Shown here one piece after another: positions 2,808-46,160 of a stretch of 64,000 nucleotides of DNA. The DNA is from a virus. The position numbers and the translations under genes were made by a program. Positions within the stretch are counted from its first letter, which is position 1, and each line of letters starts with the position of its first letter. The stretch lies in the IMG/VR virus record IMGVR_UViG_3300028581_001382, positions 62,001 through 126,000 of that record; one strand, given 5' to 3'. Under the pieces are notes generated by a model that saw only the letters and a program-made list of their open reading frames with translations, did not search any database and was not told the DNA's origin.

Positions 2808-5800
2808 TTATAATCTTCCTACTACAATTTCTATCATACCTTCAAGGCCTGTGAAATCTTCCAATGACTTACCAATGATAGATCCTGACAATGGATTTTC
2901 TTCTGCACGAGCTCGGCCATTGCCAGCAGATACCATCATGTCTCCTTTGGATACATTTCCAACTACCAGAGTTAGCACACGACCAGTTAATGCTACTATG
3001 GCTCTGTGGTCAGCAGTGAGTCCGTTATTCATCAAATAACTGGGATTTTCAGATATCACCCCAGCCACACGACGACTTGAATCAACGGTGCTTATTGTAA
3101 CTTCTTTGTTGCCGCCAAATACCATCACAGTACCTGGTGAATAATCTGCATCAGCTTCGTATACCTCAGCCAAGTCAGCATACAATGCGGTGGCTGCTTG
3201 TGCAAATACTCGATTGAAATATCCAGTTGCGGAGCCAATATTTCCTACAAGATTTCCAGCAGCATTTACAATTCCAATTGCACCACCACTAGAATTTACA
3301 CTCAATGCTCCTGTAAGACTAAAGTTACCGCCGTTATCAAGAATAGCTTTTGCATTTGCAGTAGTTGCACGGCTAGCAGTTCCTAAGTATAGTATATTTG
3401 TGTTGCCAAGTAGCCATGGGCCACTAGACTGAAATCTCACCTCGTTGTTGGCAGCAGACAAAATCATAGGACCATCAACTGACAGTTTAAATCCTGCTGT
3501 TGCTGATCCAACTATTATATTACCACTGCCAGTGATGTTACCTGTTGATGATATACCGCCACCAGTTATAGTACCTGTGCCTGAAATTGCACCGCCGGCA
3601 CCAGTTGTAACAATACCAGCGGATGTAAGATTTCCAGTTACAGATACTGCACTACCCAGTAGACTTGTTCCAGTAACATTACTAGCTGCTGATATAAGTC
3701 CACTAGATATTAAATTACCACCTGTAATATTACCCGTAGCTGATATAGTAGTAGCAGCTGACACAGCCCCAGTTGCACTAATAAATCCTCCGAGTACCAA
3801 TCCTCCAGTGCTGAACACAGCAATATTACCAACACCACCAATTGTGATATTTGCATTGCCGCCCGGCGTACCAATATTGACCTCGGATGTACCATTGACA
3901 ATTTTGACACTAACACCTTGTGTACCTTGAGCACCAATCACACCCTGCGTACCTTGAGCACCAGTTGTGCCCTGTGCTCCTATACCGGCAAAAGACCCTG
4001 ATATGCCTTGTACGCCTTGTACACCTTGCCCAGCAAATTGACCATCACGACCTTGTACACCTTGTACACCTTGCCCGGCAAACAAACCAGATGTACCTTG
4101 AGCACCAGTTACGCCTTGTACACCTTGACCGGCAAATTGACCATCAAGACCTTGTACGCCTTGTACACCTTGCCCAGCAAACAAACCAGATGTACCTTGC
4201 ACACCTTGCACACCTTGACCGGCAAATTGACCATCACGACCTTGTACACCTTGTACACCTTGCCCAGCAAACAAACCAGATGTACCTTGAGCGCCAGTTA
4301 CACCTTGAACACCTTGACCGGCAAATTGACCATCAAGACCTTGTACGCCTTGTACACCTTGCCCAGCAAACAAACCAGATGTACCTTGAACGCCTTGTAC
4401 GCCTTGAACACCTTGCCCAGCAAATTGACCATCACGACCTTGCACACCTTGTACGCCTTGTACGCCTTGTACACCTTGACCGGCAAATTGACCATCACGA
4501 CCTTGTACGCCTTGTACACCTTGTCCGGCAAACAAACCATCTGTACCTTGCACACCTTGCACACCCTGAGCACCAGTTGTACCTTGAGCACCAATTAAAC
4601 CTTGTGAACCTTGAACACCTTGTACGCCTTGTACACCTTGACCGGCAAATTGACCATCAAGACCTTGTACGCCTTGAACACCTTGTCCGGCAAACAAACC
4701 AGATAAACCTTGTGTGCCTTGTGCAGCTTGTACGCCTTGTACGCCTTGTGTACCCTGAGCACCAATTAAACCTTGTGAACCTTGAACACCTTGTACGCCT
4801 TGTACACCTTGACCGGCAAATTGACCATCAAGACCTTGTACGCCTTGAACACCTTGTCCGGCGAACAAACCAGATATACCTTGCACACCTTGCACACCTT
4901 GCACACCTTGCACGCCTTGTGTACCTTGAGCACCAATTAAGCCTTGCACACCTTGTGTACCTTGCGCAGCTTGTACACCCTGTACACCCTGTACACCTTG
5001 AACACCCTGAACGCCTTGGCTGCCTTGTACGCCTTGAACACCTTGACCGGCAAATTGACCATCAAGACCTTGTACGCCTTGTACACCTTGACCAGCAAAC
5101 AAACCAGATATACCTTGCACACCCTGTACGCCTTGCACACCCTGGAGACCCTGTACGCCTTGTGTACCCTGAACGCCTTGTACACCTTGTGTGCCTTGCG
5201 CAGCTTGTACGCCTTGCACACCCTGTACGCCTTGGAGACCTTCAACACCTTGTACACCTTGCACCCCTTGTGTACCTTGCGCAGCTTGCACACCTTGTAC
5301 ACCTTGAACACCCTGAACGCCTTGGCTGCCTTGTACGCCTTGTACACCTTGACCGGCAAATTGACCATCAAGACCTTGTACGCCTTGTACACCTTGCCCA
5401 GCGAACAAACCATCAAGACCTTGCACACCTTGCACACCTTGCACACCTTGTATGCCTTGTACGCCCTGAACGCCTTGTACACCTTGTGTGCCTTGCGCAG
5501 CTTGTACACCTTGTACTCCTTGTACTCCCTGTACGCCTTGTACGCCTTGTGTGCCTTGTACACCCTGTACACCTTGTGCTCCAGATCCTGCTACTGCTGC
5601 ACCATTGGCATAGGTAAATCCAGCTGCTTGCACATTTCCCACAGCAGTTATTACTCCACCAGTAGTGATATTGCCAGTAGCAGTTATTTGTGCAGCACTT
5701 TGGATGTTACCCACGGCTGTAACTAATCCGTTAGTTCGTAAGTTATCACCTTGAATATTACCTGTAGCTGAGATATTACCAGCCAAGATATTACCAGCAC

Positions 5801-7376
5801 TGGTGATGTTTCCTGAAACTGATATCAACGTACCAGTTAAACTAGTTGCGTTGAATAAAGTTGTTACATTGATATTATTAGCATTGACATTGCCCAGTAA
5901 ACTAACACCAGTAGAGGTGAATGTGGCAACGGGGATAATTCCAGCTACGCTTACTACAACATTACCATTTGCACTAGGGATGGTGACATTACTATTGCCA
6001 TTTATAATCTGGGTACCAGTGGCAATGGTAAGATTAGTAAGTAGGCTGCCGTCTCCAATAAAATACGCACCAGTGTTGGCTGTGATGTTTCCAGTGACAC
6101 TTACTATACCACCTGTAAAGCTGGCAGCATTAGCACGATTAGCGGCTATAATATTGTTGGCGGTGACGTTACCAGAGACTGAAACTAACCCACCTGTGAA
6201 GCTGGCCACATTCACAATATTAGTAAACATGCCATTGTTGGCAATTGCATTGCCGGTTACTGATAATGTGGTACCAGTTAGACTAGGAGCATTAAAATTA
6301 GCCACAACACTGATATTGTTAGCAGTGACATTTCCTGATACTGAAACTAACCCACCTGTGAAGCTGGCTGCGTTGGCTCGAGTGGTTGCAAAAATATTGT
6401 TGGCAAAGATATTGCCCGAAGTTGACACTAATCCTGCGGTATTTAAATTACCACCAGTAACATTGCCCGATACTGAAACTAGTCCACCTGTGAAGCTGGC
6501 AGCATTGGCTTGAGTGGTTGCAAAAATATTTCCACCGTTGATATTGGCACCTGTGACATTGCCGGAGACACTTACTAGTCCACCTGTGAAGCTGGCAGCA
6601 TTGGATCGAGTGGTTGCAAAAATATTGTTGGCGGTAACATTGCCGGTGATCTCAACCCCATCTATGGTGAATACAGCCACATTGGGCACACCGGTCACAG
6701 CCACAGAAACATTTGAATTTGCAGCCACAACAATATTACTGTTACCGTTAACTATTTGAGTACCGCCAGGTATCGCAAGATTGGTAATCAGGCCGCCGTC
6801 ACCTAAAAAGAATCCACCAGTAGAGATGTTGCCCGATGCTGAAATTATATTACTATTGACAGTTCCTGTGACATTGGCTATATTGGTAGCAGAATCAAAT
6901 GTAAATCCTGCCGAAGCGCCGGCATTGCCTGAATTGTTAAACAACACCTGTGTATTAGACCCAGGGACTGTGAGATTACCTGCTATGTTACCTGCAAAAG
7001 TCCCAATGAAATAACCATCTGTGTTGATGTTACCTGTAGCAAAAACCTGGCCACCAGTGTTGAGATTGCCGCCCCGGACGTTGCCTGTGGCTGAGATATT
7101 ACCAGCTGAGATATTACCAGCACTGGTAACAATCAAAGAATTTCCAATCAGCACATTGGCAGTGACATTGCCAGATGCTGTGACAGATACTAGACTAATT
7201 GCATTGGTCCATACTCTGACTCCATCAGTTCCTAGTCTAAGAACATCATTGGCGTTGGTGCCATTGCCAAGATTTGGCTCAGCTTGATTTAATCCTAAGA
7301 ATTGATAACGATCGGCTGTGAGATTGCCCAGATCTGTTACTGGAACACGCCCACTGATAAGTCTAGTTGAATTCAT
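2808..7376 (-). CDS. Large collagen-like tail fibre protein
   Basis: 1522 aa in three zones. Residues 1 to ~600 are beta-rich repeats built on [19 protein letters not shown] steps. Residues ~600 to ~1160 are a Gly-X-Y collagen-like tract dominated by [15 protein letters not shown] and GLFAGQ units. The rest returns to beta-rich sequence and ends in the same ~125-residue module ([18 protein letters not shown] to IEIVVGRL) as the gene at 1873-2646. The Gly-X-Y phase breaks regularly at VQAAQ, where Ala replaces Gly. Collagen-like tracts are known in phage fibres and form trimeric stalks; this one is unusually long. The strongly repeated DNA creates a long antisense open frame that I regard as a shadow. 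Confidence 0.9.
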
Positions 7377-7383
7377 TCTGGCT

Positions 7384-7719
7384 TTATCCTGTTGATGTTT
7401 CTAGCACGCTCAATGTCAATTGCGAAGCAGAATTTACATTAGCACCCACTGCAAAACTGTCACCAGTTTGTAATATCAATCTACCGCCCACAAGGTTTAT
7501 TGCATCGTTTGGCGGCAATAGCGCACTTTGTACCAAGGCCACATTATTCCCAGTTATTTTATATATATTTCCACTCACTGCGATAGTGTTACCAGTGATA
7601 TTACTGACCTGAGCCAACAGCACTACCGCGCTGTATCCGCTAGGGCAAGTATACACATTGCCAATGACATCGGTCACGGTTGCTGTTACTGTTTTAAATG
7701 CATTTAATACTGTTGCCAT
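7384..7719 (-). CDS. Small virion-associated protein
   Basis: 111 aa, starting [20 protein letters not shown]. Beta-rich, without membrane segment or catalytic motif. It sits between the collagen-like fibre and the beta-helix structural gene, same strand, with AAGGAATCAAC before the ATG. Small proteins of this kind, often in several copies, occur in structural operons of T4-like marine phages (recollection, not searched). Probable virion decoration or fibre accessory. Confidence 0.65.
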
Positions 7720-7739
7720 GTTGATTCCTTAACTGTTAC

Positions 7740-10079
7740 TTATGGCACTTCTTGCAAGGCCAATATGTAAGGGGTCATGATTGCAAACAATGATCGGTAG
7801 AAGTCATCTCCACTCACGGTTCCTGTTGCTTGATTCACTGTGAACCCTTTGCCTACTCTAAAGTTACCCTTCTGGTCTGTGCTAGTAAATGTAACTACAC
7901 CACCATTCACTGTGCGCACCTCGTTTTCAGGTATTGGTATTCCGCCGTACTGTGGCAATGCTGTGGCTGGAACAGTTCCGGCTCCTACATATTCAAATGT
8001 GTGTGCGCTGGCAATAATAGCACTGCGGGTGTAGAATTCTAAATTGGTGCCAGGCACCAGATTGGCTGAAAATGTTTCTTGTATGAGTACAGTGGCATTG
8101 CCTGCCGATGGAGTATTGGGCTGTATAGTGTCAATAGTGTAATATGTTATGGGGAACAGATTTACGTCCCATGCACTGTATGTGCCCGACCCGTTGGTGC
8201 CAGTCACATCCACAATCAAGTCACCTGTGAGTGTATCATATGATTGTACTTCACCAGTCATGAAATTGATCGAATCATATGCTATGATTACATCTTGCCC
8301 TACCGAATATGATAATCCTGTTCCTATGATCAACGAAGCCACCTGGATTGCAATAGTAAGTGTAGTGCTGCTGGTAGTAACGTAGTCAAAATCATTTATA
8401 ACCATCACGGTATTCACGTGAGGTTGTCCATTGCTTAACCCTTCAATCACAAAAGTTCCAGCGGTGCTGTAACCCACGGTGTTGCCCGAAGTTTGTAGTG
8501 GGCCTATCCCTTCAGATACCAAACCGTAGTTACCAATCGAGCAATCCGATCCGTTAAGTGTCACAAACGAACCGCTACGTGTTCTTAGGCCAATATCAGC
8601 AGCAATGGTGTAGATGTTAACTGCTTGACTGTATGCGCTGTTGAGTAGATCGACACCAATACCACCACGATTGATAATGGTATAGAAACCCAAAATCATG
8701 GCCTTGGTGCTAATACCGCTAACAAGACTGCCGTCAATCCGGCAACCAGTTCCTGTAGTAGTAGTCGATGTGATATTCTGTATGTAAGGACTCACAAACA
8801 CATTCTGCCCTGGTGTAGCAGGATCATATGCAAATGCTGCACCCAAGTAATCTCTCACCGAGATCCCCCATACATAGGTGCCATTGGTCATGTAAAACAA
8901 GTCAGTGGCTGGATCAGCTGGTTTAATTGTGACTGTGCGTAGGTTATCCCCCATGAGTGCTGTGTTACGAGGAATTGTGATAGGAGTCTGTTCAACATAT
9001 GTGCCCGACGATACACGGATAGCAACGTTGCCGTTCAGTGCAGTTGCTGCGGTACAGGCCTGTTTGATAGTACGGAATGGAGTATTCAATCCACCGTCGT
9101 TTGAGTCGCTGCCGTTTGTGGCCACATAGAATGTGTTAGAAACTGATGGAATAGGTCCTAACACATTGCCACTGGCACTAAGGATGCTGGTGTTGATACG
9201 TTGGGCTAGGATTGTGCTGACATCTAGTTCGTTGTCTATGGTCACCGTGGCCGAGAACCGGGTGTCCGGTGTGACTACAATTTGACTGCTGTCCGGAGAA
9301 TCAATCAAGGTGGTAAAAATGTTACCATATACTCCCTGATTACCTATGATAGTATTGCCCTGAACTGTGTTGATACCTATAACATTGTTACCAATCACAT
9401 TGCCCACAGCCGACACGTAATTTAGACTGCTGACAGTATTGCCAATAACACTTCCAGTAACACTGACTGCGCCAGTTACACTTAGACCAGTTGTGGTGAA
9501 TACGGCCACATTTGATGTGCCTGCAATGGTAACATTGGCATTGCCGTTTGCTGTAAAAAATCCCAACTCACTGCTGCCAAAAGCTATGGCGTTTCTAGTG
9601 ATATTACCTGCAATTGTAGCGTTACCTGTAATGTTAAGATCGCCGTAAACAGTTACCAAACGATCAGCAACTTCCAATGTTAAATTTCCATTGGCCACGG
9701 TGTTTACATTGCCATTTGTGACAGGAATGCTTACATTGCTGGTGCCATTGGTCAGGGAACTGGCGCTGGAAATATCAGTAAGATAATATCCATTACCTAC
9801 AAAATTAGTTTGTGCAACTACATTGCCGGTTGCTGTTAAATTGCTACTAGTCACTCCATTGAAAGCTATAGTCATTACATTGGGCACATCTCCTACCATT
9901 GCATAGATAGCACCACCTGCAGCGGGGATATTTATATTGCTAGTGCCATTGGAGATTTTGGTAGTGCCAAACTGTTGCAGTTGGGCAAAATTGTTGTTTA
10001 TTTTTATATACGCCGTGCGTAATGGGTCACCGGTTCCGTCATCGGGCTGGGCACCAACATCCACATATTCATAGGTCAT
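7740..10079 (-). CDS. Beta-helix (pectin-lyase-like) virion structural protein
   Basis: 779 aa. The start MTYEYVDVGAQPDDGTGDPL followed by a run to FAQLQQFG is an attachment segment I recall from T4-like marine phage structural proteins. Residues ~310-520 carry the beta-helix entry motif FYVATNGSDSNDGGLNTPF, then RTIKQACTAA and RVSSGTYVEQTPI, as in pectin-lyase-fold tail proteins. The C-terminus (GGVVTFTSTDQKGNFRVG to ILALQEVP) also recurs in phage structural genes. A short leader with a GAGG ribosome site and a TAAATA element lies upstream. Role: tail or baseplate-linked host-contact protein; no enzyme residues can be asserted. Confidence 0.85.
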   Translation of the reverse strand: MTYEYVDVGAQPDDGTGDPLRTAYIKINNNFAQLQQFGTTKISNGTSNINIPAAGGAIYAMVGDVPNVMTIAFNGVTSSNLTATGNVVAQTNFVGNGYYLTDISSASSLTNGTSNVSIPVTNGNVNTVANGNLTLEVADRLVTVYGDLNITGNATIAGNITRNAIAFGSSELGFFTANGNANVTIAGTSNVAVFTTTGLSVTGAVSVTGSVIGNTVSSLNYVSAVGNVIGNNVIGINTVQGNTIIGNQGVYGNIFTTLIDSPDSSQIVVTPDTRFSATVTIDNELDVSTILAQRINTSILSASGNVLGPIPSVSNTFYVATNGSDSNDGGLNTPFRTIKQACTAATALNGNVAIRVSSGTYVEQTPITIPRNTALMGDNLRTVTIKPADPATDLFYMTNGTYVWGISVRDYLGAAFAYDPATPGQNVFVSPYIQNITSTTTTGTGCRIDGSLVSGISTKAMILGFYTIINRGGIGVDLLNSAYSQAVNIYTIAADIGLRTRSGSFVTLNGSDCSIGNYGLVSEGIGPLQTSGNTVGYSTAGTFVIEGLSNGQPHVNTVMVINDFDYVTTSSTTLTIAIQVASLIIGTGLSYSVGQDVIIAYDSINFMTGEVQSYDTLTGDLIVDVTGTNGSGTYSAWDVNLFPITYYTIDTIQPNTPSAGNATVLIQETFSANLVPGTNLEFYTRSAIIASAHTFEYVGAGTVPATALPQYGGIPIPENEVRTVNGGVVTFTSTDQKGNFRVGKGFTVNQATGTVSGDDFYRSLFAIMTPYILALQEVP

Positions 10080-10090
10080 AGATACATATC

Positions 10091-10110
10091 CTCTGGTGTA
10101 TTTACCAGAG
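10091..10110. other. Perfect 7-bp inverted repeat enclosing a TAAATA element
   Basis: CTCTGGT and ACCAGAG arms flank a 6-base loop; on the minus strand the loop and arm read GGTAAATACACC. It lies 11 bases upstream of the start of the structural gene at 10079. It may be the late promoter of that gene with symmetry imposed by a binding factor, or the weak terminator of erpA; it has no T-run, which argues against termination. Confidence 0.4.
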
Positions 10111-10132
10111 CTGCGTATCTATGTCTAACAGA

Positions 10133-10453
10133 CTAAACGGAGAAGCTTGATCCGCATCCGCAGGTGCTGACCGCGACGGGATTGTTGATTACAAAGCTGG
10201 AACCCATGACGTCCTCACGAAAATCAATGGTAGAACCTTGTAAATATTGCATGCTCATGGCATCTACTATTACATGTACTTCTTCATAATTGAAGTCAAA
10301 ATCGTCTTCATTTTGCTCTTCATCAAAGGTAAATCCATAACTGAATCCTGAACATCCGCCACCTTGTACAAACACTCGTAGCTTGATTGCAGGGTTGGCC
10401 TCTTCGGCAATGAGTTCTCGCAGTTTTGTGACTGCTCCTAGTTCTAGTTTCAT
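10133..10453 (-). CDS. erpA: Iron-sulfur cluster insertion protein, ErpA/IscA type
   Basis: 106 aa A-type Fe-S carrier. The three cysteines of the family are present: C34 in [12 protein letters not shown] and C98, C100 in the C-terminal STCGCGSSF. Length and spacing match ErpA/IscA. It would pass Fe-S clusters to apoproteins in the host cytoplasm. It lies 12 bases downstream of a superoxide dismutase gene, suggesting protection or repair of Fe-S or iron enzymes during infection. The family assignment is firm; ErpA rather than IscA is a guess. Confidence 0.93.
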
Positions 10454-10465
10454 AATGTGTTTAGT

Positions 10466-11008
10466 TTATAGTCTATCTGAGCACACATCCCAGTTGATGA
10501 TACGCCAGATGTTGTTGAGATATTTTTCTTTTTCCCACTGATAGTCAGTGGCCCAAACATGCTCCCACCAGTCAATAAGTACACATATATCTGTACGTAC
10601 AGCATGATTTTTGATGGTTTTGATCTCTCCACCGGTGCTCAAGTAAACCCAACCCGATCCCTGGATTTTCATTGCTGTTTCTTTCACAGCGTCTTGAAAT
10701 GCTTCGTAACTTTTGAACTTGCGTTCAATCAGTTCCAATACAGCGCCTCTAGGTCGATTTGTGCCTCGGGGCGGTTGTAATTGTGGGAAGAATTTGTTGT
10801 GCAAAAAGCTACCTGCACGATTAAAATCAGCATCACCTTCGCCGGCATTGTAGCGTTTGGCATAGCCTTTGGCCAGATGCTCGTAGTGATAGTTGATACT
10901 GTCTGCACTCAGCACAGGTGCTAACTCGTCAGTAGCATAAGGCAGAGGTGTAGTTTCCAGTTTGGCTGGTCTTGTGCTGGCTTCTAATAGATCAATATGT
11001 TCACGCAT
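10466..11008 (-). CDS. sodB: Fe/Mn superoxide dismutase
   Basis: 180 aa, close to the usual ~193. The four metal ligands are in place: H41 (SINYHYEHL), H70 (FLHNKFF), D146 and H150 (LIDWWEHVW), plus the family motif GSGW at 117-120 and LPYATDELAPVLSA near the N-terminus. It dismutates superoxide in the cytoplasm. The only ATG is preceded not by a ribosome site but by GCTAAATA exactly five bases upstream, a late-promoter-like element. Downstream are erpA and upstream infA. The metal (Fe or Mn) cannot be decided from sequence alone. Confidence 0.95.
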   Translation of the reverse strand: MREHIDLLEASTRPAKLETTPLPYATDELAPVLSADSINYHYEHLAKGYAKRYNAGEGDADFNRAGSFLHNKFFPQLQPPRGTNRPRGAVLELIERKFKSYEAFQDAVKETAMKIQGSGWVYLSTGGEIKTIKNHAVRTDICVLIDWWEHVWATDYQWEKEKYLNNIWRIINWDVCSDRL

Positions 11009-11013
11009 GCAAG

Positions 11014-11021
11014 TATTTAGC
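11014..11021 (-). promoter_or_regulatory. Late-promoter-like GCTAAATA five bases before sod start
   Basis: T4-type late promoters have TATAAATA about six bases before +1. Here that puts +1 at the A of the sod ATG, so the transcript would have no leader. The same spacing occurs at several other genes in the window. Confidence 0.55.
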
Positions 11022-11235
11022 GCCGACGGGTAATACGCCCTTTGGTGAGATCATACGGTGAAAATTCAATCAACACCCTATCACCCAGTAAGATCTTGAT
11101 ATCATGCTTGCGCATACGGCCTGAGATATAGCCGATAACTGGGTTTTTTACACCATCTAACTGTATACGGAACATGGTATTTGGTAGGACTTCTAGTACC
11201 TTGCCTTCTAATTCTATGTTTTCTTCTTTTGCCAT
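11017..11235 (-). CDS. infA: Translation initiation factor IF-1
   Basis: 72 aa, the exact usual length of IF-1, with the OB-fold signature: [39 protein letters not shown] and the tail [10 protein letters not shown]. Host IF-1 binds the 30S A site during initiation. A phage-borne copy could tune initiation towards phage mRNAs, for example those without a normal leader (inference). It precedes sod on the same strand with a 9-base gap and follows a small SH3-fold gene. Confidence 0.95.
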
Positions 11236-11246
11236 TGACCTATTAC

Positions 11247-11648
11247 TTAGCTAAAGTTGATTTCTGCTGTGATCTTTTGCAGACGGTCAAAACGGAAACT
11301 ACGCCATTCATTTTTCTCCAGGTCAAATACTCGTAGACTGTGCGGATCTGGTTCTTTACGTGATTTCTTGCTTTTGACCAGCCCGTCCACATTTGCTGTG
11401 CTGGTGCTGAAAATTGCAGCATCAGGTTGTGCAGGCATCCGGCTGCTGTCTAGGGTACAAAGCATGTCACGTACAGAGCCATCGGCTTTGACAAAGGTCA
11501 CAGTGATTGGGTTCTTTTGTAACAGACTGCGCACCCAGTCTCGGATTACAGTTTTTTCTGTGTCTGTGGATTCTTGATATTGTGTGCCCGGTGCTTTTTT
11601 GAGCAGTCGAAACACTTCACTCTTTTCCCAATCCATTATTGTATCCAT
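11247..11648 (-). CDS. SH3-fold (WYL_2-like) phage protein
   Basis: 133 aa. Residues ~48-65 ([19 protein letters not shown]) and the end ([19 protein letters not shown]) match the small WYL_2/Sm-like SH3 beta-barrel family that recurs in T4-like phages. Ribosome site AAAGGAGATAGT precedes the ATG, giving MDTIMDWEK. Function unknown, possibly nucleic-acid binding. It follows the FxLRW gene array. Confidence 0.75.
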
Positions 11649-11669
11649 ACTATCTCCTTTTAAAAATTT

Positions 11670-11906
11670 CTACGACCACTTCAACGCAAACCAAGTTGCC
11701 AACTTTGGATCCTTGACTGTGATAGTTGGTATGTATTCAACTGTGGCGTCGCCCAATGGTTGTGGATTTATTTCCTTTTCAACACGCTCATAGAACCAGT
11801 CATAATCAGTGCCGTCTTTGGGTTTGTTCAAATTGCCTCTGCCCACATTTTTCCACAACCATTCTGTACATCCTGATGGCACACCTTGCCGAAACTCTAA
11901 TGTCAT
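11670..11906 (-). CDS. Small FxLRW-family protein, array member 5
   Basis: 78 aa from the ATG at 11906, which overlaps the previous stop as ATGA. It ends KDPKLATWFALKWS. The last codons read TTGAAGTGGTCGTAG, so the AGGTGG ribosome site found in the other members is degraded to AAGTGG. The following gene has its own AAAGGAG. This last member keeps the protein motif while losing the translational signal. Function unknown. Confidence 0.7.
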   Translation of the reverse strand: MTLEFRQGVPSGCTEWLWKNVGRGNLNKPKDGTDYDWFYERVEKEINPQPLGDATVEYIPTITVKDPKLATWFALKWS

Positions 11907-12151
11907 GACCACCTCAACAAGAATAACGTAGCATCTTTACTTTCCTCAAAAGCAACCTCTCCGCCCCACCATAACTGGTATTCTCCGCAGTGTGTGTTTA
12001 TCCAGTTTATTACATCCTGGCTATCATGGTGCAAGAATAAATTTGGTACCTGGACAATGGTCCATCCCCGAGCTTTGCACAGCACTTGTGCATCAATAGT
12101 ATCAGACAAGTTTTTTGCAATTTTATCAATATATTCTTGTTGTAAATTCAT
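11903..12151 (-). CDS. Small FxLRW-family protein, array member 4
   Basis: 82 aa starting MNLQQEYIDKIAKNLSD and ending KDATLFLLRWS. Start chosen at the ATG that overlaps the upstream stop as TAATG, with AGGTGG just before it inside the previous gene. Its own end, TTGAGGTGGTCATGA, encodes LRWS-stop and at the same time supplies the ribosome site and start overlap of the next gene. Function unknown. Confidence 0.72.
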   Translation of the reverse strand: MNLQQEYIDKIAKNLSDTIDAQVLCKARGWTIVQVPNLFLHHDSQDVINWINTHCGEYQLWWGGEVAFEESKDATLFLLRWS

Positions 12152-12540
12152 TATGACCACCTTAATGCCGCCATTGTAGCATACTTGGCATATTTCTGTC
12201 TAATCTTTATTGATAGACGATTTGCAGCCACATCATTATTGGCCATACCCCAGTTCCAATCCCACCCTTGCCGACCAACATGCTGTTCCATCCAAGGACG
12301 ATAATGATCGTTTGGGTCAGCACTGTCAACATATTCAAAGCATTCGCCTATACCCGACCATCCATCTCTATGACTGGGTCCAACTTTTACCGGTCCCTTT
12401 GGCCACGCTACATTGACCACAACCCCGGGCATGAATCTCCACCAAAGTTTGTCATAAAAATTAAGACCGCAAGGCGTCCACCTGCTGAGTCCATTCAAGT
12501 TTTTCCAACAGAACAATCCTTTGATTTCACTCTTGCTCAT
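12151..12540 (-). CDS. FxLRW-family protein, array member 3
   Basis: 129 aa from the ATG at 12540 (MSKSEIKGLFCWKNLNG), overlapping the previous stop as ATGA. Tryptophan-rich, with VGRQGWDWNWGMANNDV near residue 90, and ending YATMAALRWS. The final codons carry AGGTGG before the next gene. The C-terminus is a divergent form of the family (MAALRWS in place of WFALRWS). Function unknown. Confidence 0.72.
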   Translation of the reverse strand: MSKSEIKGLFCWKNLNGLSRWTPCGLNFYDKLWWRFMPGVVVNVAWPKGPVKVGPSHRDGWSGIGECFEYVDSADPNDHYRPWMEQHVGRQGWDWNWGMANNDVAANRLSIKIRQKYAKYATMAALRWS

Positions 12541-12737
12541 GCCCACCTCAATGCAAACCACATGGCATCTTTACCCTCGCCAAAATAATACACGATACTA
12601 GAGTCATTTACCCAACCACCGGGCACCGACTTTAGTCTTGTAGTATTAACAGACTCATTGGTAATATAACTAGGACAATTTTCTTTAGCCCATGCTAATG
12701 CAGTCCAATCTGGATCGTAGGGTAGTGTAACTGTCAT
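12537..12737 (-). CDS. Small FxLRW-family protein, array member 2
   Basis: 66 aa from the ATG at 12737 (MTVTLPYDPDWTALAWAKE), ending FGEGKDAMWFALRWA. The start overlaps the upstream stop as ATGA. The end TTGAGGTGGGCATGA again encodes LRWA-stop and a GAGGTGG ribosome site. Function unknown. Confidence 0.72.
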   Translation of the reverse strand: MTVTLPYDPDWTALAWAKENCPSYITNESVNTTRLKSVPGGWVNDSSIVYYFGEGKDAMWFALRWA

Positions 12738-12964
12738 GACCACCTCAGTATAAACCAAGTACGATCTGCTTCTTCACGGAACCAATACTTTTGATTACTG
12801 CCCACCCAACGAGCATTTTCTGTAAACCAATTATTTTGACCCATTATATCCAGCAGCCATTTATTCATATCATACCACTCTTGTTCATTATAGTTGTATG
12901 GTCGAATCCAATAGGGCCATTTGGGTTGATTGTCAGCATAACCAGTTTCAAGGCGTTTTGTCAT
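12734..12964 (-). CDS. Small FxLRW-family protein, array member 1
   Basis: 76 aa from the ATG at 12964 (MTKRLETGYADNQPKWPYW), overlapping the previous stop as ATGA; a longer in-frame extension exists but lies inside the upstream gene. It ends FREEADRTWFILRWS, encoded by CTGAGGTGGTCATGA, which is also the next gene's start signal. Rich in Trp and Tyr. Function unknown. Confidence 0.72.
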   Translation of the reverse strand: MTKRLETGYADNQPKWPYWIRPYNYNEQEWYDMNKWLLDIMGQNNWFTENARWVGSNQKYWFREEADRTWFILRWS

Positions 12965-13350
12965 CGACGCATATGTGCAGAATCTTCTGCTGCCTGCCGA
13001 TTGAACACTGGCTGCAAACAACTCTTGTGCATCACAGCAATGCCAATGATCTCAGTACCTGTATACACTTTGACGTTGGAACTAGTATCATGCCCTTGGG
13101 TCACGCGGCTAGGAATATGATGTGTGTTAGTACGACCCACTGGCGTGTTTAGTTTATACACCAGTGGGTCTGCTGCCATTGCCCGTTTACGCTTGCGTTC
13201 TTCAGCTTCCACACCCTGGCGTTTCAACAGTTCTTTCCAGCTTGAATCTAGCTCACGGGCACGAGCAGCTTCGGCAGCATTGCGAAACTTGACCTTGCCC
13301 CGCTTTTTGCCACTCATACTGAGACTGGGGTGTGCTAAATGCATTGTCAT
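12961..13350 (-). CDS. Conserved phage protein, basic, GKKRGK motif
   Basis: 129 aa from the ATG at 13350, chosen because GGAGATACAT lies directly before it. Residues ~12-25 (SGKKRGKVKFRNAAEAARA) and the end (CLQPVFNRQAAEDSAHMRR) match a small protein family I recall from many T4-like marine phages. Very basic middle (EERKRKRAMA). First gene of the array driven by the promoter at 13374-13402. Function unknown. Confidence 0.75.
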   Translation of the reverse strand: MTMHLAHPSLSMSGKKRGKVKFRNAAEAARARELDSSWKELLKRQGVEAEERKRKRAMAADPLVYKLNTPVGRTNTHHIPSRVTQGHDTSSNVKVYTGTEIIGIAVMHKSCLQPVFNRQAAEDSAHMRR

Positions 13351-13373
13351 ATGTATCTCCAAGTAATGCTGTT

Positions 13374-13402
13374 ATTATAGCATATACAGGATTATTGGTC
13401 AA
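13374..13402 (-). promoter_or_regulatory. Early-type sigma70-like promoter
   Basis: Minus-strand TTGACC, 17-base spacer, TATAAT. It lies ~24 bases upstream of the gene starting at 13350 and should drive the FxLRW array. Confidence 0.75.
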
Positions 13403-13416
13403 GTAGTACTAGAGTA

Positions 13417-13725
13417 TTACCTGAACAGCAGCAGGGCCATGAGCACAGCTTGCACAATAAAGCCCAGGCCAATTGTGATGATGTTGAGCATGTCTTTGAG
13501 CACCACAGCACGTAGGAACATCAGTACCAGGCCTGCCCACATAAACAATACCATATCCAGCTGTGGGGCACGGTCGCTGAGTCCAGACATTAGAGCCAAC
13601 AAGGTGGGAATGGTAGCAGCGTGAATCACAATCACTGAAAGCCAACCCAGGGTCTCTGCTGAGATTTTTCCAAAGTGTTCAACAAAGAAGTTTCGAACTG
13701 CGGGCACAATGTTGTTGATGTTCAT
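13417..13725 (-). CDS. Small membrane protein, holin candidate
   Basis: 102 aa with three or four hydrophobic segments (LSVIVIHAATIPTLLALM, MVLFMWAGLVLMFLRAVV, IITIGLGFIVQAVLMALLLF). It starts MNINNIVPAVRNFFVEH and overlaps the lysin gene by ATGA, so the two are co-translated. Position next to a lysin and size suggest a holin or lysis regulator; this is inference from context only. Confidence 0.6.
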   Translation of the reverse strand: MNINNIVPAVRNFFVEHFGKISAETLGWLSVIVIHAATIPTLLALMSGLSDRAPQLDMVLFMWAGLVLMFLRAVVLKDMLNIITIGLGFIVQAVLMALLLFR

Positions 13726-14300
13726 GAGCGGTCTCCGTAAAAAATATGACGTCCAATTTTTTCAATCCGGGGCAGTTTCCACCCCGGGCTAACATAGTCA
13801 GCATGATAGTAAAGTGCATCTTCTAGACCAGGCAATCTAAATCCTTCCAGCAACACTTTTTTGGCCACAATCTCTGATTCATTCCACAAGGGTTTGTTAA
13901 TTGCACGAGTGGTATGGTTGCCTTCGCAGTACCAGCTAAACTGACAAACTACTTTTTCGTAGAATACATTTTTCTGATACACTACCCCGCAAACAGAATC
14001 GGGAAATTTTCCAGACTCCATTCGATTCAGGGTAACCTGCGCCACACCAACTTTGCCTTCAAACGGCTCACTGGCCGCCTCCCAGTAAATGTTGCGTGTC
14101 AAACATTCTAGCTCTTTGGTTCTTTGAGCTGCTGACACATAATTGTCAGACATGTTGTTGTTTGCTTGTCGTAGGTAATCGAGTTTTGTAGTGCTAGTCA
14201 CAAACACAGCAGCCAACACCACCCATAGTCCAAAGACTTTTAGTAGGCGTGAGCTCCAGGTTGCAACTTGCAAAGTGGTTGAGGTTACATTTGCGTTCAT
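13722..14300 (-). CDS. SleB-type cell-wall hydrolase (lysin) with N-terminal membrane anchor
   Basis: 192 aa. Residues ~72-190 are a Hydrolase_2/SleB domain: LTRNIYWEAASEPFEGKVGV with the conserved glutamate in YWEA, VTLNRMESGKFPDSVCGVV, FSWYCEGNH, and the YYHADYVSPGWK end. Residues ~20-37 (LKVFGLWVVLAAVFVTST) form one hydrophobic segment, as in signal-anchor lysins. The enzyme cleaves peptidoglycan in the periplasm. It overlaps a membrane protein gene downstream and is driven by the promoter at 14395-14423. Confidence 0.9.
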   Translation of the reverse strand: MNANVTSTTLQVATWSSRLLKVFGLWVVLAAVFVTSTTKLDYLRQANNNMSDNYVSAAQRTKELECLTRNIYWEAASEPFEGKVGVAQVTLNRMESGKFPDSVCGVVYQKNVFYEKVVCQFSWYCEGNHTTRAINKPLWNESEIVAKKVLLEGFRLPGLEDALYYHADYVSPGWKLPRIEKIGRHIFYGDRS

Positions 14301-14394
14301 AGGCTGTTACTTAGTAGGTAGTACCACATTGTGAAGCATAGCCCCACAAAATGGTACGTTTTGGCCAATAAGTGGGTAGTTATCCCACAATAGT

Positions 14395-14423
14395 ATTATA
14401 GCACAGTTTGACTTATTGGTCAA
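14395..14423 (-). promoter_or_regulatory. Early-type sigma70-like promoter before lysin
   Basis: Minus-strand TTGACC, 17-base spacer, TATAAT, overlapping the 3' end of nadE. It probably transcribes the lysin and membrane protein pair. Confidence 0.7.
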
Positions 14424-15213
14424 ACTTGCAAACCGGGATTGGTTGCATTTTGTGCATGTTTTTAGCACGAAGCTCTTGATAACGTTTTAGCTTTTTGCGA
14501 TCGTCTGCTGACAGCTTGGTACTGCCGGGCATGTCCGAGTCCACCGCCTTGACAAGTTTTAAGAAGTCCAAGGCCATCATGCGTTCTAGATCAGGGTAAG
14601 TCATGCCAATCTGATCTTCATCTGTACGACCATCTGCCCAAAGTCCATCAGTAGGAGCAGCATCGATGATCTCCGGTGCTACGCCAAGTTCGCGACCCAT
14701 GTCCCATACATGTGTTTTGAGACAGTCGCCAATGGGACTGAGGTCTACTCCACCGTCACCATATTTAGTAAAGAATCCCACTCCAAAATCCTCTACACGG
14801 TTACCTGTACCTACCACAATACCCTTCATGCTTTGTGCAATCTGATACAAAGTCATCATGCGCAATCTGGCTCTACTGTTGGCATACGCCAGTTCATTGT
14901 ATACACCATCTGCTGTGGCTTTTTCAAACTGTTTAAATGCAGCAGTAAGATCAATATTTTTGTGCAGCACAGTGTTGGGGAATTTCTCTAACAGCCAGGC
15001 TCCATGTGCCATGCTTAGACTGTGAGTGGCCTTGCTTTGACAAATGGGCATGCTCACCGCATGTACATTTAGTCCGGTCATAGCACACAAGGTACTGACC
15101 ACAGCAGAATCAATTCCGCCAGAGATTCCTATCACTAATGTGTCAATTTTGGCACTTCGGGCATATGCACGAATCCACTTGACAATTGTGTTGATACGTT
15201 GTTTTGGGGTCAT
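14413..15213 (-). CDS. nadE: NAD+ synthetase (ammonia-dependent type)
   Basis: 266 aa from the ATG at 15213, which overlaps the upstream stop as ATGA. The PP-loop SGGIDSA is at 31-37. Also visible are VVGTGNRVEDFGVGFFTKYG (NaAD/ATP site) and ADGRTDEDQIGMTY. NadE amidates nicotinic acid adenine dinucleotide to NAD+. The length is that of the synthetase domain alone, without a glutaminase domain. Phage NAD synthesis genes may refill NAD for replication or counter NAD-depleting defences (inference). Confidence 0.94.
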   Translation of the reverse strand: MTPKQRINTIVKWIRAYARSAKIDTLVIGISGGIDSAVVSTLCAMTGLNVHAVSMPICQSKATHSLSMAHGAWLLEKFPNTVLHKNIDLTAAFKQFEKATADGVYNELAYANSRARLRMMTLYQIAQSMKGIVVGTGNRVEDFGVGFFTKYGDGGVDLSPIGDCLKTHVWDMGRELGVAPEIIDAAPTDGLWADGRTDEDQIGMTYPDLERMMALDFLKLVKAVDSDMPGSTKLSADDRKKLKRYQELRAKNMHKMQPIPVCKFDQ

Positions 15214-15797
15214 AGTGTTGGCGGTTGCATTTTCTTGAGTGCTTCCCACATCTGACTTTTCTCTTGGCATTTCTTTTCCAGTTTTCTATATCGTTCGCCA
15301 AGTCGGCGTAGATCATCCCATTCTTTTTCCATGTCAGGATTAGGTGTGAGAATGTTGAGTCTTTGTTCTATCTTGTCCATCCAGGCACTCATGCTTTTGC
15401 CATTGATCTCAATGTCGGCGGTTTGGCCCTTTAGACTCATTTTGCCGCTTTGATCAATGTTTGCTAAAGAAATATTACCCGGACTCCATGAGGTTGCCCC
15501 AGTGGCATTGGTGGTATAGATGTACGGTCCTACAGTACCAGAGGAGAGTCCTACAGTACCAGAGGAGAGTCCTACAGTACCAGAGGAGAGTGATCCTGTA
15601 GCACCAGTAACTTGCATATCACTAGCACTATACCCTACATCCATTGATCCAGTGACTTTACTAGTAGTCCATGGATATGCATTGGCATTTTGAATTGTTT
15701 GATCGACTTGGTCTTGTGTTAGGATGTCAACAGAGTTCCAGATCTCGCGAATGTCGCGGAGGTTTTCAAGATCCAATGATGATAACTTGTGACTCAT
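15210..15797 (-). CDS. Conserved phage protein with internal 7-residue repeats
   Basis: 195 aa. The middle has three exact copies of LSSGTVG encoded by a 21-base tandem repeat. The C-terminal part (MEKEWDDLRRLGERYRKLE to MWEALKKM) is a coiled-coil motif I recall in T4-like phage proteins, some linked to virion assembly. It overlaps nadE by ATGA. Function unknown. Confidence 0.7.
   Translation of the reverse strand: MSHKLSSLDLENLRDIREIWNSVDILTQDQVDQTIQNANAYPWTTSKVTGSMDVGYSASDMQVTGATGSLSSGTVGLSSGTVGLSSGTVGPYIYTTNATGATSWSPGNISLANIDQSGKMSLKGQTADIEINGKSMSAWMDKIEQRLNILTPNPDMEKEWDDLRRLGERYRKLEKKCQEKSQMWEALKKMQPPTL
15529..15591. repeat. Three tandem copies of a 21-bp unit
   Basis: Three identical in-frame copies (unit CCTACAGTACCAGAGGAGAG plus T on the plus strand) inside the gene at 15210-15797, adding LSSGTVG each time. 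Copy number could vary by slippage. Confidence 0.9.
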
Positions 15798-23688: not shown

Positions 23689-23973
23689 TTACTTTTCTTC
23701 GTTGTTGATTAATCCGTTACTGCGTCGATCTGAAACATTATCTAGGTCTTGTTCCAATCGTCTTTCTTTGATTGATTTTATACCTAAAACTTTTTCTCCC
23801 GAGCAAAGCAAACATTTGGGATTGCCACAATCCAATGCATGGTGTTTCACAAACTTGTGAGGTTCTGTAACTGGAACTCTAAAAGTTTTGGCGATCTTGG
23901 TTTGCTTTTTCACAGCATTCTCATCTTTTTGAATGCGCTTGTTTTTTTTGATTTTGTCTTGTTCTGTGCTCAT
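23689..23973 (-). CDS. Small phage protein with Cys pair
   Basis: 94 aa from the ATG at 23973, overlapping the upstream stop as ATGA. Very basic N-terminus (QDKIKKNKRIQKDENAVKKQ), HHALDCGNPKCLLCSGEKVL giving a C-x4-C-x2-C metal-binding candidate, and ERRLEQDLDNVSDRRSNG. Similar proteins with a CGxxxCxxC motif occur in T4-like phages. Function unknown. Confidence 0.68.
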   Translation of the reverse strand: MSTEQDKIKKNKRIQKDENAVKKQTKIAKTFRVPVTEPHKFVKHHALDCGNPKCLLCSGEKVLGIKSIKERRLEQDLDNVSDRRSNGLINNEEK

Positions 23974-24203
23974 TGCCACCTCAGTAAAAATGCAAAATAA
24001 TCTCGCTCACTGTCGAAATAAAAAACATATCTACCTGGCTGTTGATAATTGCTCATCTCTACCAGTTGCCATCGCCAATCATGCACCAGTTCATCTTTGC
24101 ACCATTCGATCATCTGGTCCAGAATGCCTGTTTTCTTTCCAAGTTCATGCGAATGTCGAAAACTTTCCTTGTCGCGTACAGCATAATGATCTAAAATTTG
24201 CAT
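23970..24203 (-). CDS. Small FxLRW-family protein
   Basis: 77 aa: MQILDHYAVRDKESFRHSHE, then WCKDELVHDWRWQLVEMSNY, ending FDSERDYFAFLLRWQ. Paralogue of the 11.7-13 kb array. Its end CTGAGGTGGCAATGA encodes LRWQ-stop plus the ribosome site and start overlap of the next, unrelated gene. Function unknown. Confidence 0.72.
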   Translation of the reverse strand: MQILDHYAVRDKESFRHSHELGKKTGILDQMIEWCKDELVHDWRWQLVEMSNYQQPGRYVFYFDSERDYFAFLLRWQ

Positions 24204-44107: not shown

Positions 44108-46156
44108 TTATTTTTCGGTCGCTATCCATTCACCATTCCAATTGGACGGTAAGGCTTGCCGCTTCATAAAGTCGCAACGTTCCGTCCATATCTTATAATA
44201 CTTGTCCATCTGTCCGCCAAAGTTTCCCTTTAGATCTGCACACATTACAGCAGCTTCGTCAAACTTTTTCTGTCGATACAAGGCATGCATCGCTTCGTGT
44301 TGTGCTTTGTCTTTAGAGTAATCTGTGCCTTTGGTGCGTAGAGCTGTATAGATCAAGTCTGCTACAGTTTTACCCTTTGGTTGTAAGTTATCTAGCAACA
44401 AATACAAGAAGTCATCTTTGGTTCTATTATATGTTTCGGCACCAATAATACATAGCACACCATATGCTTTGCAACGTGCTTCCAAACGTGCAGCGGTGCT
44501 CACCATGTCACCCAAGATGTCATAGCTGTGTCTTTCTGTTGATCCCATTTCACCAATAAAGCCAATACCACTGTTACAACCCCAACCCATTGCAGCAGGT
44601 GGTAATCCCTGTGCTTCCATAACTTTGGTATACTCGTCTACCTTGTCTAGCATTTCAAGTCCTACCTTAACAATTGTTCGTGCGTGGTCAGGATCTTCAA
44701 TAGGAGCACCGTGTATGTGCATTGATGCATCGCCCACATACTTGATGACCATACCTTGGTTGTCTAGCATTGGCTGACTAATGGCATCCATATAACCGTT
44801 CATGTACTTGCCAAGTCCGGCAACGTCATCGCCATAGTATTCACCAATAGGAGTAAATCCACGCAAGTCGCTGAACATAACTGATACGTCTTTACGCACA
44901 CCTCGCTTGATTAAGTCTGGATCTTTTTGTAGTAACTCTACTACTTCTTTGGAGCAGTAACCGGCAAACTGTTTCTTTATGGCTTGCTTTTGCAAGAACT
45001 CGCTTAGAAACTTGATACCATAGGCATGCAGAGCGACCAAAGTTGTGCCAACTGCAAAGGCAGTAGCATCGAATAAGAATAAAAAATTGCTGTAAGCAAG
45101 AATGCTGCCAGCAATACCGCCGCCCACAATAACCAAAACTGTCGCCATACCTGCATAAGTATACCTCGTCAAAAACAACAATGTTAGGCCAGCCAGAGCC
45201 ATGGCCAATATCTCAGCACCGTCGGCCCAATCAGGCCGCACAATGCGACGTTCTGAAGTCAGGGTATCTAGTACAGCGGCCTGCAGATAATGCGGGAAGA
45301 CCTCACCTCTTGCAGTGGCCACTGGGTTGTTGAGTCCCCGGGCGGATAAGCCCACAATGACGATTCCACCTTGGAAATCTTTTGGCAAACTAGCCAAGGA
45401 GTGTTCTTGCGGTCGGGATGACCAATCCACCCAGATTCTACCAAGACTGTCTGTTGGGATTTTTCCAAACTGTGGAATTCTAACTGCTTCAATAATTCCT
45501 GAGTTGACTCGAACTTGGAAAGAGGGGTCGCCTGCTGCAACTCGTAGGGTTTCAAGACTGATAGAGGGGTAGATCTGTTGTCCAACACTGACGACCATGG
45601 GGATTCTGCGAACGACACCGTCCAGTTCGGGCACAGTGTTAACAATACCAATACCAGCTGCTGTTTCATTGATCTTCCTTTCGTTGGGTTGAATTGCCCG
45701 GTATGGTATGCCCGGTTCACCTGAACCAATCACGCTTACACCAGGTCTAAATGGCACAGTGTTGGTGCGCACTGGGTCATTGGTTGCGGTGTGTGGCAAC
45801 ACCACAGGATATTTTTGTAAGAGTTGCGCCAATTGCTGATCTTGACCTGCACGATCTGCGTCGGGCATGAACACATTAAACACCACAAGACCTGCATTAC
45901 GCTGATAGAGATCTTGAATTATTTGGGCGTATTGGCCCCGGGGAAAAGGAAACTGTCCACGCTGCTCAATGGCCTGATCATCAATGTTCACTAGATGTAC
46001 GCCAGAGCTGGCCGTGGTTGGTGTGCTGGTTATCACTGTGTCAAAGTAACGCAGCCTAACACTTTCTACTAAGGCTGGATCTGCGATTCTAATGCCAACC
46101 ATTATGGCTAGAGTTAGCAGCGCAGTCCAAGGGGATAACAGTAATTTTTTTACCAC
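44108..46156 (-). CDS. CHASE2-domain adenylate cyclase (class III)
   Basis: About 682 aa from the GTG at 46156 (a TTG lies one codon upstream). One membrane segment at 11-24, a CHASE2 sensor domain (~50-305), three more segments (~315-385), then the cyclase domain (~425-560). Catalytic residues, numbered from the TTG: metal Asps D431 (FSDLRGF) and D477 (KYVGDASM), adenine-specifying K473 and D547, transition-state R558 (AARLE). The conserved Asn of VNxAARLE is Ser554. It may make cAMP from host ATP after sensing a periplasmic signal. Confidence 0.88.
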   Translation of the reverse strand: MVKKLLLSPWTALLTLAIMVGIRIADPALVESVRLRYFDTVITSTPTTASSGVHLVNIDDQAIEQRGQFPFPRGQYAQIIQDLYQRNAGLVVFNVFMPDADRAGQDQQLAQLLQKYPVVLPHTATNDPVRTNTVPFRPGVSVIGSGEPGIPYRAIQPNERKINETAAGIGIVNTVPELDGVVRRIPMVVSVGQQIYPSISLETLRVAAGDPSFQVRVNSGIIEAVRIPQFGKIPTDSLGRIWVDWSSRPQEHSLASLPKDFQGGIVIVGLSARGLNNPVATARGEVFPHYLQAAVLDTLTSERRIVRPDWADGAEILAMALAGLTLLFLTRYTYAGMATVLVIVGGGIAGSILAYSNFLFLFDATAFAVGTTLVALHAYGIKFLSEFLQKQAIKKQFAGYCSKEVVELLQKDPDLIKRGVRKDVSVMFSDLRGFTPIGEYYGDDVAGLGKYMNGYMDAISQPMLDNQGMVIKYVGDASMHIHGAPIEDPDHARTIVKVGLEMLDKVDEYTKVMEAQGLPPAAMGWGCNSGIGFIGEMGSTERHSYDILGDMVSTAARLEARCKAYGVLCIIGAETYNRTKDDFLYLLLDNLQPKGKTVADLIYTALRTKGTDYSKDKAQHEAMHALYRQKKFDEAAVMCADLKGNFGGQMDKYYKIWTERCDFMKRQALPSNWNGEWIATEK

Positions 46157-46160
46157 CAAA

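Follow-up and report, generated by a model that had tools for sequence, protein, structure and literature searches.

Our study reports on a row of five small tandem genes (P1 to P5) in a 64,000-nucleotide stretch of viral DNA (the window), which corresponds to bases 62001-126000 of the 153,873-bp IMG/VR virus record IMGVR_UViG_3300028581_001382. The genes lie on the minus strand, flanked by a phrog_27048 gene and a WYL_2 gene, and their products share a C-terminal motif, F-x-L-[RK]-W-[S/A]. From the window and related loci we propose, with a probability of roughly 85%, that the codons of this motif have been co-opted as the ribosome binding site of the next gene, that their choice is tuned by the presence of a follower, and that genes are swapped at the ATGA edge where the stop codon of one gene overlaps the start codon of the next. 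The motif itself would be there for the protein, as the end of the last helix of small ββ-α-ββ-α proteins, and the codons YTG AGG TGG would set GAGG, a Shine-Dalgarno sequence, at position -9 from the stop-overlapping ATG. The next gene would then be started by the ribosome finishing the upstream gene, or by a new ribosome binding GAGGTGG. The ratio of nonsynonymous to synonymous substitution rates (dN/dS) between the array genes of the window and their orthologues is about 0.15-0.42, which indicates that they are real genes. The array, its borders, its junctions and a sixth family member (P6) are listed below in window positions; handles beginning with L denote related loci.

12961-13353, minus strand: gene preceding the array, phrog_27048; ATGA overlap with P1, no AGG signal
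12734-12964, minus strand: P1, 76 amino acids, MTKRLETGYADNQ...FILRWS; orthologues in L106, L131 and others
12734-12748, minus strand: P1/P2 junction CTGAGGTGGTCATGA, CTG AGG TGG TCA TGA; next ATG at 12737-12735
12537-12737, minus strand: P2, 66 amino acids, MTVTLPYDPDW...FALRWA; about 100 relatives by phmmer
12537-12551, minus strand: P2/P3 junction TTGAGGTGGGCATGA, TTG AGG TGG GCA TGA; encodes LRWA
12151-12540, minus strand: P3, 129 amino acids, MSKSEIKG...AALRWS; the most divergent member
12149-12165, minus strand: P3/P4 junction TTAAGGTGGTCATAATG, TTA AGG TGG TCA TAA TG; AAGG, stop codon TAA
11903-12151, minus strand: P4, 82 amino acids, MNLQQEYID...FLLRWS
11903-11917, minus strand: P4/P5 junction TTGAGGTGGTCATGA, TTG AGG TGG TCA TGA
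11670-11906, minus strand: P5, 78 amino acids, MTLEFRQG...FALKWS; last member, no overlapping follower
11654-11660, minus strand: AAAGGAG, the WYL_2 gene's own Shine-Dalgarno sequence; same tail behind the last member in L131
11247-11648, minus strand: gene following the array, 133 amino acids, Pfam WYL_2 (E 3e-12), outside the family
23970-24203, minus strand: P6, 77 amino acids, ...AFLLRWQ, outside the array
23970-23984, minus strand: P6 junction CTGAGGTGGCAATGA into an unrelated lysine-rich follower (23973-23689)

A stop/start overlap (ATGA or TAATG) is present at all four array junctions and at P6, and GAGG or AAGG precedes the ATG at each array junction. The original prediction, made from the letters of the window, had placed motif codons, a Shine-Dalgarno-like signal and an overlapping ATG together at 12734, 12537, 12151 and 11903, and this is confirmed on the minus strand. 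Its more specific statement that every junction encodes LRWS-stop with GAGGTGG is exact for P1/P2 and P4/P5 and has to be relaxed for the other two: P2/P3 encodes LRWA, and at P3/P4 the signal is AAGG and the ATG shares a single base with the stop codon (TAATG), unlike the ATGA found elsewhere. Across the whole 153.9-kb record, TTGAGGTGGTCATGA with up to two mismatches matches only the four array junction sites. The last member, P5, ends TTG AAG TGG TCG TAG, so that, as had been noted, it carries AAGTGG and LKWS while its follower uses its own AAAGGAG; P5 orthologues in L090, L100, L104 and L125 terminate in LRWS. P4 is seen in both contexts, reading TTG AGG TGG TCA TGA in the window, where P5 follows, and CTA AAG TGG TCG TAG in L131, where its orthologue is the last array member. 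The phrog_27048 gene provides a built-in control: it ends in CATATGCGTCGATGA, without AGG although it is ATGA-overlapped with P1, which suggests that the signal goes with the ends of family genes.

Codon choice at the motif tracks the presence of a follower. We analysed a codon-blind sample of 508 distinct members, pooled from three fetches that ignored the arginine codon (via a neighbouring gene, via the motif with the arginine codon left free, and via an internal motif some 20 residues further upstream), in which a follower is a start lying 4-11 nt past the first base of TGG. The sample obtained with the AGG-based pattern TTYNNNYTGAGGTGGKCATGA is biased for AGG and was left out of these statistics. 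AGG makes up 232 of 302 arginine codons (77%) in members with a follower and 14 of 75 (19%) in those without (odds ratio 14, P = 1e-20), over a background of 57 of 734 (8%) elsewhere in the same open reading frames. The difference holds when each 50%-identity cluster contributes one member per state (145/175 vs 8/39, P = 1.6e-13, 267 clusters), and under a stricter definition of the follower (115/150 vs 16/41). The lysine and leucine codons of the motif behave alike, with AAG at 48 of 87 lysines with a follower and 8 of 44 without, and TTG or CTG at 264 of 366 and 32 of 106 leucines, respectively. Within the P1 subfamily, collected by its internal motif, the counts of AGG among arginines are 26/43 with a follower and 1/23 without, and the nearest matched pairs fall 11:0 in the predicted direction. 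The claim that selection on translation acts at these gene ends had been staked on homologues without a follower keeping AGG-TGG less often than the others; they do, and the claim is borne out for codons. As these statistics show, the codons drift to AGA, CGN, AAA and non-YTG leucine where no gene follows.

The junctions of the family also stand apart from other overlapping junctions in the same loci. The pairing energy with the anti-Shine-Dalgarno sequence before overlapping ATGs has a median of -7.1 kcal/mol where the upstream gene belongs to the family and -3.1 kcal/mol where it does not (P = 1e-22). GAGG at -9 is found at none (0.00) of 697 ATGA junctions between two non-family genes, at 9% of those leading from a non-family into a family gene, at 53% of family-to-family junctions and at 38% of family-to-non-family junctions. 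The signal therefore depends on the upstream gene being a family member, even before non-family followers, and sits in the end of that gene, where it is offered to any follower. In IMG/VR the pattern TTYNNNYTGAGGTGGKCATGA matches more than 120 stretches, many of them with 3-8 matches each, against about 14 expected from a base-count estimate, and the junction thus recurs beyond chance. Base pairing and the known behaviour of ATGA pairs suggest that translation of the next gene does start at this seam, and the stop/start overlap would help coupling, as in other systems (PMC6728339).

The protein motif has a life of its own. Members share a plan consisting of a strand pair, a 'W.c..tFG' helix, 'RW', a strand pair with 'KFWFR', and a helix 'D..wF.LRWS'. 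AlphaFold2, run on P1 with 50 aligned sequences, predicts a ββ-α-ββ-α fold with a mean predicted local distance difference test (pLDDT) score of 94.5, in which the motif lies within the last helix (65-75). The motif tryptophan and phenylalanine are invariant in A1, the set of P1 relatives. Of about 100 members drawn by an internal motif blind to the C-terminus, 95 retain F-x-L-[RK]-W, with or without a follower. The motif also persists at operon ends, where its codons are AAA, AGA or CGN, in some cases right ahead of terminator-like or promoter-like sequence. Because the motif survives without a follower and sits in the last helix of a confidently predicted fold, it is probably not a simple product of the ribosome binding site; the effect of translation would lie more in tuning the codons than in creating the motif, and the ribosome binding site would be an added use of codons that already served the protein. 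The original prediction that translation shapes the protein ends is accordingly sustained only in part, by a modest preference for arginine over lysine in members with a follower (302/389 vs 75/119, odds ratio 2.0, P = 0.0013); this preference is absent from the P1 subfamily, where arginine and lysine do not differ by follower state.

Two alternatives would make one side of this double use incidental. LRWS might be a by-product of the ribosome binding site, the nucleotide signal having come first and the protein end having no role; the ribosome binding site and the overlap together use almost every base of TTGAGGTGGTCATGA, and the tilt towards arginine points the same way. We regard this as quite improbable, since F-x-L-[RK]-W is kept where no gene follows and there with codons that form no Shine-Dalgarno sequence, and since its invariant residues lie in a well-predicted helix. 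Conversely, AGG-TGG might be a mere codon preference for the protein motif, with the start overlap incidental; the motif is conserved and tryptophan can only be TGG, hence part of the signal comes free, and the original prediction rested on five copies. The rarity of AGG elsewhere in the same reading frames, its dependence on the follower, and the absence of GAGG at -9 from the 697 other overlapping junctions leave this explanation hardly tenable.

A different kind of alternative arises from the turnover of genes at the seam. Gene order is P1-P2-P3-P4-P5 in the window, P1-A-B-P3-P4 in L131 and P1-A-B-P3-C-P4 in L132. Between orthologues at 60-90% identity, a homologous follower is kept in 17-40% of family pairs, compared with 54-58% of the remaining ATGA pairs; retention is alike (65% and 60%) once identity reaches 90-97%. 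Across 45 pairs whose followers have been swapped, DNA identity drops from 0.86-0.90 before the ATGA to 0.23 immediately past it. This sharpness comes partly from the choice of pairs, in which the upstream genes had to be homologous and the downstream genes not, and the loci include those selected for AGG by TTYNNNYTGAGGTGGKCATGA. These comparisons show individual genes entering, leaving and replacing one another at the ATGA edge, and where the follower has been exchanged the ribosome binding site remains attached to the upstream gene. All of this could be ordinary gene-by-gene exchange, in which the Shine-Dalgarno codons ride on 3'-end blocks that recombine at the shared 15-bp sequence with little selection on single codons. 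The ATGA is the break point in the swapped pairs, a near-identical seam of 12-15 bp occurs at many junctions, and P5 of the window and the P4 orthologue of L131 have an identical tail, TGGTCGTAGAAATTTTTAAAAGGAG. The association nevertheless holds across the 267 clusters, which are too diverse for one block to be a likely explanation, and the synonymous choices of leucine and lysine shift as well; we therefore consider this account rather unlikely.

Several observations weigh against follower-tuned co-option of the motif codons. Tails swapped as blocks may have carried codon and follower state together, so that their association would be inherited and not the result of point selection. Among clusters at 50% identity that hold both states, AGG moves with the follower in 11, against it in 3 and not at all in 3, and tree-based independent contrasts on well-supported branches give 2.3:0 among arginines, in the right direction but underpowered and not significant. 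About one fifth of the members with a follower use lysine (AAA/AAG) and thus a weak signal, which implies that the Shine-Dalgarno sequence is not essential everywhere, and AGG persists in some copies without a follower, as the 14 noted above. The model of P3 has a pLDDT of 63.5; this low-confidence model has the same final strand-helix elements, and the divergence of the protein stands in the way of a confident fold.

The co-option proposal leads to a view of the array as a relay. The original prediction had described each gene as a self-contained, transferable unit; the gene-by-gene turnover and its sharp ATGA edge agree with transferability, but a gene brings the ribosome binding site of the next gene and needs the end of the preceding gene to provide its own, and the array is thus better seen as a relay than as a set of self-contained units. 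An incoming gene with an ATG at its edge would find a ribosome binding site ready, and a family member would supply one to whatever lands behind it, which may promote array growth. The diversity of the family and its operon setting hint that the proteins may serve host takeover or counter-defence. Taken together, these steps would amount to a plug-in expression system, in which the codons of a conserved helix, used as a ribosome binding site, allow any promoterless gene arriving behind a family member to be translated, and every further family member restores the landing site. Gene arrays for diversified proteins of host takeover or anti-defence would then expand and be rearranged with their expression secured; we advance this wider picture tentatively, and judge it somewhat more likely to fail than to hold.

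The array belongs to a large, uncatalogued and hyper-variable family of small proteins, encoded by uncultured phages, that is absent from Pfam and PHROGs. The loci fetched hold hundreds of members, with up to 20 in a single contig stretch, and the pattern F...[KE]DA..F.L.W, blind past the motif tryptophan, has 138 of its 143 matches at C-termini. Within the window's own genome, a profile of the P1 relatives (A1) recovers P1, P2, P4 and P6 (the last with E 1.9e-6); P5 and P3 are more divergent, P5 being linked by phmmer and P3 sharing the order of elements, with a weak model. Domains are shuffled inside the family, as seen in fusions that join an N-terminal segment resembling P4 (MSDEID..VL) with a C-terminal domain of the P1 type at L127:5295-5615, L091:6392-6715 and L152:9286-9603. 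Neither P1-P5 nor the 50 A1 members had a credible match in Pfam or PHROG, and a fold search of the PDB gave no significant one (best E 0.7); a resemblance to YciH in that search is weak and was not trusted. In BFVD, the strongest matches come from uncultured phages and are themselves uncharacterised. No match to P4 was found by a single-protein search of IMG/VR or by tblastn against cultured phages, and a profile (A2) search of bacterial genome contigs gave no relatives at that sensitivity.

The surroundings of the array are those of a phage genome, with structural genes matching tail-fibre and baseplate families. Two further features of the window bear on its affinity and on the array operon.

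44108-46159, minus strand: CHASE2 and adenylate/guanylate cyclase protein, 45% identical to its counterpart in Methylophilales phage Melnitz
13374-13402, minus strand: match to a sigma-70-like promoter, TTGACC-17-TATAAT (11/12), preceding the array operon; by consensus only

The cyclase is nearest to that of Melnitz, followed by Pelagibacter phage HTVC008M (35%); the Melnitz genome has no motif genes. Behind the WYL_2 gene come phage versions of translation initiation factor IF-1 (Pfam eIF-1a, E 1.9e-21; 11017-11235), Fe/Mn superoxide dismutase (10466-11008) and an iron-sulphur cluster assembly protein (10133-10453), all on the minus strand in the same gene run. The IF-1 gene lies two genes past the array, and its presence near an array built on translation initiation signals is suggestive. 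Upstream lie a cell wall hydrolase (13722-14300), an NAD synthase domain protein (14413-15270, minus strand, E 1.8e-50) and, within an open reading frame at 15210-15797, a 21-bp perfect tandem repeat of 3.1 copies (15527-15591) that encodes SSGTVGL repeats.

Comparison with cultured phages highlights two similar gene runs. The ORFanage of cyanophage S-PM2 (PMC4503421) likewise consists of short orphan genes that overlap one another, with little conservation of synteny and an affinity to freshwater; it was rejected as a home of the family, as no open reading frame that we read ends in F-x-L-R-W or has GAGGTGG at its seam. Many ORFanage proteins (L409, record 5786-15739) end in D-stop because the next start falls in AATGACTGA or GATGACTGA, and this seems to be another case of an overlapping start setting protein ends. 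In Sinorhizobium phage Phosso (L302), a cultured jumbo phage, XYS97730.1 shows weak similarity (E 0.08), and several adjacent small genes end in 'F.F....DA..F.LR'; they differ from the array in having no LRWS end and no GAGGTGG at their junctions. This run may represent a remote branch of the family that can be cultured and in which the ribosome binding site use is absent.

We found no description in the open-access literature of a conserved protein motif that serves as a ribosome binding site across a shuffled gene family. Such a system joins two questions that are usually separate, namely the promoter-free addition and shuffling of phage accessory genes and the constraint of protein ends by translation signals, and offers a simple codon rule that tracks follower presence in an uncatalogued protein family. 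Codons tuned in this way may permit genes to be swapped within a row without loss of expression.

Intragenic Shine-Dalgarno sequences and termination-reinitiation coupling at ATGA overlaps are known and general in prokaryotes (PMC6728339, PMC10666635); there the signal occurs in unrelated genes, whereas in the array it holds a fixed position in a family-wide conserved motif and recurs along the row. Synonymous choice at gene ends is constrained by the overlapping Shine-Dalgarno sequence of the next gene (Eyre-Walker, 1996, as cited in PMC2784483), which is described there as a genome-wide average, whereas in this family AGG at one codon position rises from about 20% to about 77% according to whether a gene follows. 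The closest parallel for the shuffling is given by the PeSL cassettes of T4-type phages (Arbiol et al., 2010; Comeau et al., 2014; both as cited in PMC4503421), in which repeated elements at gene borders accompany the shuffling of small accessory genes. No early promoter with stem-loop terminator of the PeSL type was found between the array genes, which have no intergenic space and terminator-like sites at chance level. PeSLs, as reported there, are promoter/stem-loop elements, whereas the repeated element of the array is coding sequence that would act in translation; in both systems the order of genes is shuffled at the element, here through turnover of the follower at the ATGA edge.
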